Source: Allobranchiibius sp. CTAmp26 (GTDB lineage Bacteria > Actinomycetota > Actinomycetes > Actinomycetales > Dermatophilaceae). Taken from it: a stretch of DNA of 64,000 bases. A program made the position numbers and the translations under genes. This document shows, one piece after another, positions 41,182 through 41,526 of this stretch (position 1 is the first letter of the stretch; every line of letters starts with the position of its first letter). The notes under the pieces are model-generated. The model did no database searches. It was not told where the DNA came from and saw only the letters and a program-made list of their open reading frames with translations. The stretch covers positions 1-64,000 of the forward strand of contig NZ_JAGEKR010000009.1 in the NCBI RefSeq assembly GCF_017565405.1, given 5' to 3'.

Positions 41182-41408
41182 GTCGTCCTCTTCCCGCTGG
41201 AATATCCGCCTGTCGCGAACGTAGGAAGACACCCTGGGTGCAGGGAGCGATTTCCTGTGCCGTGCCTGTGCGCACGCCCGCAATGACGGGTGTGAGCGGA
41301 GCTCGACGGCGACGGGTCTTCACAGCCTGCGCCGCCACGCGTCCCGGAATGTGGACTCGATTCCCACCCTGTGGACGTCGTTGCGGAGCGGCGCCTACAG
41401 TGGCGGAC
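41182..41408. promoter_or_regulatory. Divergent sulfatase/leuA upstream region
   Basis: No coding gene is supported here. At the right end a -10-like TACAGT (41396-41401) lies 7 nt before the leader-peptide GTG; TGGACG at 41372-41377 is a possible -35 at 18-nt spacing. I see no clear sulfatase promoter. Confidence 0.45.
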
Positions 41409-41456
41409 GTGCGTGCGGCATACGGACTCCTTCTTCGCTGCCGCGGCGGGGCCTGA
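41409..41456 (+). CDS. leuA leader peptide
   Basis: A 15-codon frame, GTG to TGA, reads [15 protein letters not shown] with three consecutive Leu codons (CTC CTT CTT, 41427-41435). It begins 7 nt after the -10-like TACAGT, so it would be translated from a leaderless mRNA. Three Leu codons ahead of leuA are the hallmark of ribosome-mediated control by charged leucyl-tRNA. Confidence 0.75.
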
Positions 41457-41526
41457 CTTTCGGCCTTCCTCGCCGCGGAGGTCGTGCTGCCCGGGCCGAA
41501 GCCCAACCGCAACCAAAGGCGAGTCC
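41457..41526 (+). promoter_or_regulatory. leuA attenuator RNA element (actinobacterial LEU type)
   Basis: The region after the leader peptide can form a long stem TTCGGCC (41459-41465) with GGCCGAA (41494-41500), enclosing the hairpin CCTC-GCCGCG-GAGG (41468-41481). There is no T-rich terminator tail, so control of initiation or a pseudoknot is as likely as termination. Conserved LEU elements before leuA have been described in actinobacteria by comparative analysis. Confidence 0.6.

Follow-up and report, generated by a model that had tools for sequence, protein, structure and literature searches.

The leader region upstream of leuA

The window, that is the whole analysed stretch of 64,000 nucleotides, contains leuA and, upstream of it, a short leader frame with a run of Leu codons and several potential helices (Table 1). 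The sequence-only reading had described a 15-codon GTG frame with CTC-CTT-CTT upstream of leuA, 7 nt past TACAGT, a nested stem structure between leader and gene, and no T tract after the stem. The coordinates of the frame are confirmed, with 7 nt between TACAGT and the GTG at 41409, and the lowest-energy fold of the leader consists of a hairpin (P2) enclosed by a base stem (P1). Terminator-like sites number zero in 41200-41700, so the terminator hairpin with U tract of a classical transcription attenuator is lacking. Two features were absent from that reading: the ribosome-binding site of leuA pairs with the Leu codons, and two of the three Leu codons are the rare CTT.

Short ATG or GTG frames with three consecutive Leu codons occur only three times in the window on both strands, and only one of them has TAnnnT 5-9 nt upstream. 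At the strictness of the scanner, a consensus scan of 41200-41700 finds no sigma-70-like promoter, and no AG-rich Shine-Dalgarno-like tetramer (GGAG, GAGG, AGGA or AAGG) is present in 41393-41408. An Rfam search of 40500-42500 yields six matches up to E=10, all under their gathering scores and none of them a leader family. The leuA frame is open upstream as far as the GTG at 41371; gene callers may therefore misplace the leuA start within the promoter or leader and wrongly swallow the latter.

Table 1. Features of the leuA leader region (window positions)
Feature	Position	Strand	Basis or remark
Weak -35-like hexamer TGGACG	41372..41377	+	best -35 candidate, read from sequence; 18 nt 5' of the -10; missed by consensus scan
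-10-like hexamer TACAGT (TAnnnT)	41396..41401	+	sequence; TAnnnT spacing in relatives
Leader peptide frame, 15 codons, GTG start 41409-41411, stop TGA 41454-41456	41409..41456	+	predicted transcript 5' end
Base stem P1, 5' strand (GGACTCCTT), overlaps Leu codons	41424..41432	+	lowest-energy fold, permutation test
Leu codons CTC-CTT-CTT	41427..41435	+	codon counts
Hairpin P2, 5' arm (CCGCGGCGGGG)	41441..41451	+	covariation, family comparison
Pseudoknot loop strand TTCGGCC	41459..41465	+	loop/downstream pairing
Hairpin P2, 3' arm (CCTCGCCGCGG)	41468..41478	+	covariation, family comparison
Pseudoknot downstream strand GGCCGAA	41494..41500	+	loop/downstream pairing
Base stem P1, 3' strand (AAGGCGAGTCC), leuA ribosome-binding site up to ATG	41516..41526	+	lowest-energy fold, permutation test
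leuA, 2-isopropylmalate synthase (TIGR00970 / NF002991), start ATG 41527	41527..43269	+	TIGR00970-type

Leader and start-site conservation

In a first set of relatives a leuA match is found in 55 of 58, and 50 upstream regions were used, leaving out the contig-end fragments G032, G035 and G045 and also G037 and G041. A second set has a leuA match in 112 of 118 genomes; here the best places of ten were left out (G218, G226, G256, G257, G260, G263, G273, G289, G290 and G296). The comparison comprises 159 leuA upstream regions: 34 of the same family, 21 of the rest of the order, 91 of the rest of the class and 13 of the phylum outside the class. A leader, defined by at least three consecutive Leu codons no more than 260 nt upstream of leuA, is present in 147 of the 159 regions versus 23 of 3180 dinucleotide shuffles. 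It occurs in 30/34 regions of the family, 20/21 of the rest of the order, 87/91 of the rest of the class and 10/13 outside the class. Leader residues other than the Leu run vary among relatives.

The motif TAnnnT lies 5-9 nt ahead of an in-frame start in 122 of the 147 leaders, versus 330 of 7350 shuffles (4.5%). When only the closest start codon that leaves three or more codons ahead of the Leu run is considered, its spacing is 6-10 nt in 131 of 147 and hardly falls elsewhere across 0-44. A Shine-Dalgarno-like tetramer of the kind listed above precedes the leader start in only two of the 122 leaders with TAnnnT. This arrangement, with a -10 box at such a distance and no ribosome-binding site, is that of leaderless transcripts. 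On this basis the comparison supports a leader that is predicted to be leaderless throughout the class; for the window, the sequence-only reading had already thought a leaderless transcript probable, and the 5' end there is a predicted one. In Streptomyces lividans, the distance from the -10 to the transcription start averages 6.3 nt in the reported data (PMC8079986).

Hairpin P2 and the pseudoknot

In most loci P2 opens 5 nt past the Leu run, and the stop codon of the leader is located within the P2 loop. Statistics on P2 are based on 100 loci hand-picked from 146 class regions; several regions lacking a recognised leader (L044, L050, L138, L148 and L156 among them) and the family of L059 are not included. 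Over these loci 99.2% of the cells are paired, 7 of the 11 pairs show changes in both partners, and no shuffle out of 500 does equally well by any measure. When each of 39 families contributes a single sequence, in a set that leaves out f21 and f74 with their irregular or shorter hairpins, none of 2000 permutations is as good. Leaders of f74 (L149, L151, L152 and L155) are shorter, end in LLLLTRP or similar, and possess a different hairpin (CCCGTAGCGGGG).

The pseudoknot connects the P2 loop with a strand further downstream. In relatives its strands are TTCGGCTT with GAGCCGAG, TCAGCCG with CGGCTGA, and CAGACCGGC with GCCGGTCTG, and a helix of at least 5 pairs between P2 loop and downstream strand is formed in 112 of 117 distinct pairs. 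A first test by whole-duplex energy is weak (-15.78 for the own pairing versus -14.00 with other genomes; the own pairing ranks in the top 10% in 30 of 121 cases), and an ungapped-helix test over all loci gives a modest difference (own 17.6, others 15.4, shuffled 12.4). The verdict relies on the permutation with one sequence per family, in which the own pairing is matched by 6 of 2000 permutations over 39 families. MAFFT misaligned the pseudoknot strands, and its alignment was therefore used only as seed for the hairpin model.

Base stem P1 and folding energetics

P1 consists of GGACTCCTT paired with AAGGCGAGTCC with a two-base bulge, and only 2 of 3000 permutations across the 39 families are as good. 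In the lowest-energy fold of the window leader an inner helix is predicted that extends P2 instead of the pseudoknot and would correspond to the alternative hairpin of the LEU element described in other actinobacteria (see below). The stability of this fold equals that of shuffles (z -0.01); as single-sequence folding performs no better than shuffles, it was excluded as evidence for structure.

In the 100 loci, opening the leuA start costs 8.94 kcal/mol on average and 6.98 kcal/mol when the Leu region is blocked, compared with 8.61 for a control block. The drop has a mean of 1.96 and a median of 1.10 kcal/mol and exceeds 0.5 in 59/100 loci (control: mean 0.33 kcal/mol, above 0.5 in 38/100); it is larger than the control drop in 71/100 loci. 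For the window alone, the cost falls by 0.68 when the Leu codons are covered, from 6.69 to 6.01 kcal/mol. If the Leu region is taken away, folding predicts a local helix, 41479-41485/41526-41532, over the leuA ATG; by eye, it does not look conserved in the sequences of relatives.

Of the 93 Leu codons that make up the leader runs in the family, 41 are CTT, versus 1.1% of the 1223 Leu codons of leuA in the same loci, and CTT ends the Leu run in 25 of 27 family leaders. In six genes of the window it amounts to 2 of 224 Leu codons. Two readings are possible: the ribosome could sense leucine more sensitively through a rare codon, or CTT could be kept for its pairing with the AAG of the ribosome-binding site. 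Compared with random synonymous codons the Leu codons bring no clear gain in pairing strength (64 of 117; -13.39 vs -13.03 kcal/mol), in a test with guessed codon weights and, in some rows (e.g. L005, L083, L088 and L120), badly chosen leuA starts. This leans slightly against the second reading and also counts against the start-site masking proposed below.

Distribution of the element

A covariance model, R1, was built from 29 family sequences and covers hairpin P2 only; it provides a model where no searched Rfam family matched. It scores the window site at 92.3 bits. The genome of the window organism contains one strong R1 site (5.7e-19) and four at E 0.37-0.97; for the latter no leucine gene was recognised downstream, and they are taken as chance matches instead of further copies. 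At E<=0.1, a match anywhere in the genome is found in 113 of 118 class genomes, which is the less biased figure; at E<=0.01, only 18 of 148 genomes across the phylum possess one, 16 of them within the class.

Twenty additional R1 sites in other genomes were examined (L251-L270). They precede leuB (11), leuC (5) and a 2-isopropylmalate synthase of another type (3, one of them outside the class), with one site unassigned; leader frames were found at 19 of them, with none found at L268. The leaders of leuB carry mixed Leu, Ile and Val codons, e.g. MRFVLILRCRDGA, MLWSVRILSCRDEAR and MRSVFVLIDCRGEA. In the literature surveyed, mostly at the level of listings, no description of LEU-type leaders before leuB or leuC was found; both genes are added here as likely targets of the element.

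Between leader and leuB a conserved small frame with an end motif like ALQESMDRRDQG is present in L254, L258, L259 and L262, and also upstream of leuB in the window's own genome (MSEEQIEIQRALQESMDLRD; G000:C8, 236826). Neither NCBIfam nor, above its cut-off, Pfam yields a match to this frame. The leuB of the window genome (L273, at about 236826 of the same contig) has TAGCGT about 8 nt ahead of its ATG and may thus be leaderless itself. Its leuC (L271, G000:C9, at about 169852) is without a LEU element and, as read from the sequence, appears divergent from an IclR-type-looking regulator gene.

Outside the class, the leuA leaders of L066, L068, L070, L071, L072, L075 and L077 encode a short Leu-run peptide that stops right after the Leu codons, followed, by eye, by a GGGCGAGCG-type hairpin and then by a terminator-like hairpin with T tract. 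Several of them, such as L068, L070, L071 and L077, appear leaderless. The arrangement suggests that leuA leaders outside the class may use ordinary transcription attenuation. It is conceivable, though somewhat less likely than not, that the LEU element belongs as one branch to a family of leaders with leaderless starts that extends over the class, in which the sensed codons serve as built-in anti-Shine-Dalgarno strand. This family would govern leuA, leuC or leuB according to lineage, the leaders of leuB responding jointly to Leu, Ile and Val, and in other classes of the phylum the same leaderless Leu leader would be joined to a terminator. If true, one sensor would act on translation in one lineage and on transcription in another.

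Proposed mechanism and alternative explanations

The element is probably a leuA leader controlled by its leader peptide and acting mainly on translation initiation. Transcription would begin at or beside the GTG at 41409, and a 70S ribosome would initiate at the bare 5' end. With plentiful leucine, the ribosome would complete the leader and depart, P1, P2 and the pseudoknot would form, and the leuA start would be masked. With charged tRNA-Leu scarce, it would stall on CTC-CTT-CTT and hold the 5' strand of P1, leaving the leuA start open. That start-site occlusion or a pseudoknot might operate in place of termination had been guessed from the sequence alone, and this agrees with both helices: the occluding stem (41424-41432/41516-41526) and the pseudoknot (41459-41465/41494-41500) are present and supported by comparison. 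As a model, start-site masking has good support for the family and weak support for the window sequence alone.

The same leader could control transcription instead, stalling or release of the leader ribosome deciding on termination before leuA by Rho or at a P2/pseudoknot pause. Leader-peptide attenuation is the usual mode in amino acid operons, 7 of 13 regions outside the class seem, by eye, to have a terminator-like hairpin with T tract at the end of the leader, and Rho has been suggested for terminator-less cys leaders (PMC1262725). The window region is devoid of terminator-like sites, and a purely transcriptional switch has no need of the conserved stem P1, in which the Leu codons pair with the ribosome-binding site of leuA, so we regard this explanation as unlikely. 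More doubtful still is a binding site for a regulatory protein, with a leader peptide of little regulatory weight. Such a site was proposed, with orthologs of ML1624, because mutations of the Leu codons gave no clear effect (PMC1262725, as far as available), and leucine genes of Streptomyces are reported also as IclR/NdgR targets (PMC4340878). Binding of a protein would require neither the retention of the Leu run together with its reading frame, start codon and -10 spacing among leaders whose other residues vary, nor the switch of leuB leaders to Leu, Ile and Val codons. Least credible, and very improbable, is a leaderless mini-ORF that solely loads ribosomes onto the leuA message, the structure being incidental. 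Leaderless uORFs are reported as common in actinobacteria (PMC4633059); against this stand the strong covariation of P2 and the pseudoknot, the fit of the leader's sense codons to the pathway of the downstream gene, and the position of the leuA start, 70 nt downstream of the leader without overlap or coupling.

Published mutations in the leuA leader of S. coelicolor had, in the account of PMC1262725, some effect that was inconsistent with classical attenuation; its conclusion is that mutations of the Leu codons do not influence regulation in this species. Because the codon-mutation study cited there is ambiguous, the LEU element has been without an agreed mechanism since 2005. Control by the leader peptide at translation initiation is the explanation we retain as the likeliest.

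Comparison with known systems

Leaderless cysteine attenuators of mycobacteria were reportedly described by Canestrari and co-workers in 2020; judging by the title, they resemble the window leader in that a short leaderless ORF before the operon contains several consecutive codons for the pathway residue, here cysteine instead of leucine. Attenuators of the trp and leuS type in Streptomyces and Corynebacterium, as presented in PMC1262725, likewise have a leader rich in the regulated amino acid, but they carry terminator and antiterminator hairpins, whereas the window leader is without a terminator. Leu leaders are listed before leuA of C. glutamicum (PMC4046766, PMC3890552) and C. diphtheriae (PMC5784534), and a leuA uORF of M. 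abscessus is given as ribosome-protected (PMC4974804).

The leuL1 of S. lividans TK24, published in 2021 (PMC8079986), is, like the window frame, a 15-residue Leu leader before leuA with no Rho-independent terminator. It is reported as mapped and leaderless, whereas the window leader is leaderless by prediction, and its peptide MRFGLLLLSCRGEGL has four consecutive Leu codons, compared with three in the window. The LEU element predicted upstream of actinobacterial leuA by Seliverstov et al. in 2005 (PMC1262725) combines a Leu-run leader ORF, a pseudoknot and a base stem that joins the Leu codons to the Shine-Dalgarno box of leuA, with no terminator. The Leu run, pseudoknot and base stem are all present in the window, as expected from its initial classification as a LEU-type leader, and no difference is seen among the features tested; the conserved -10 spacing and the leaderless start are unmentioned in the available part of that paper. 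As both the LEU element and leuL1 are already published, the window leader is not a new type: it belongs to the described LEU element and is nothing categorically new. For this element, the near-invariant spacing of -10 and start, together with the rare CTT codons and the three helices that were tested, gives a specific, testable model, in which leaderless loading would be followed by a stall on the Leu codons and by release of the leuA start site.
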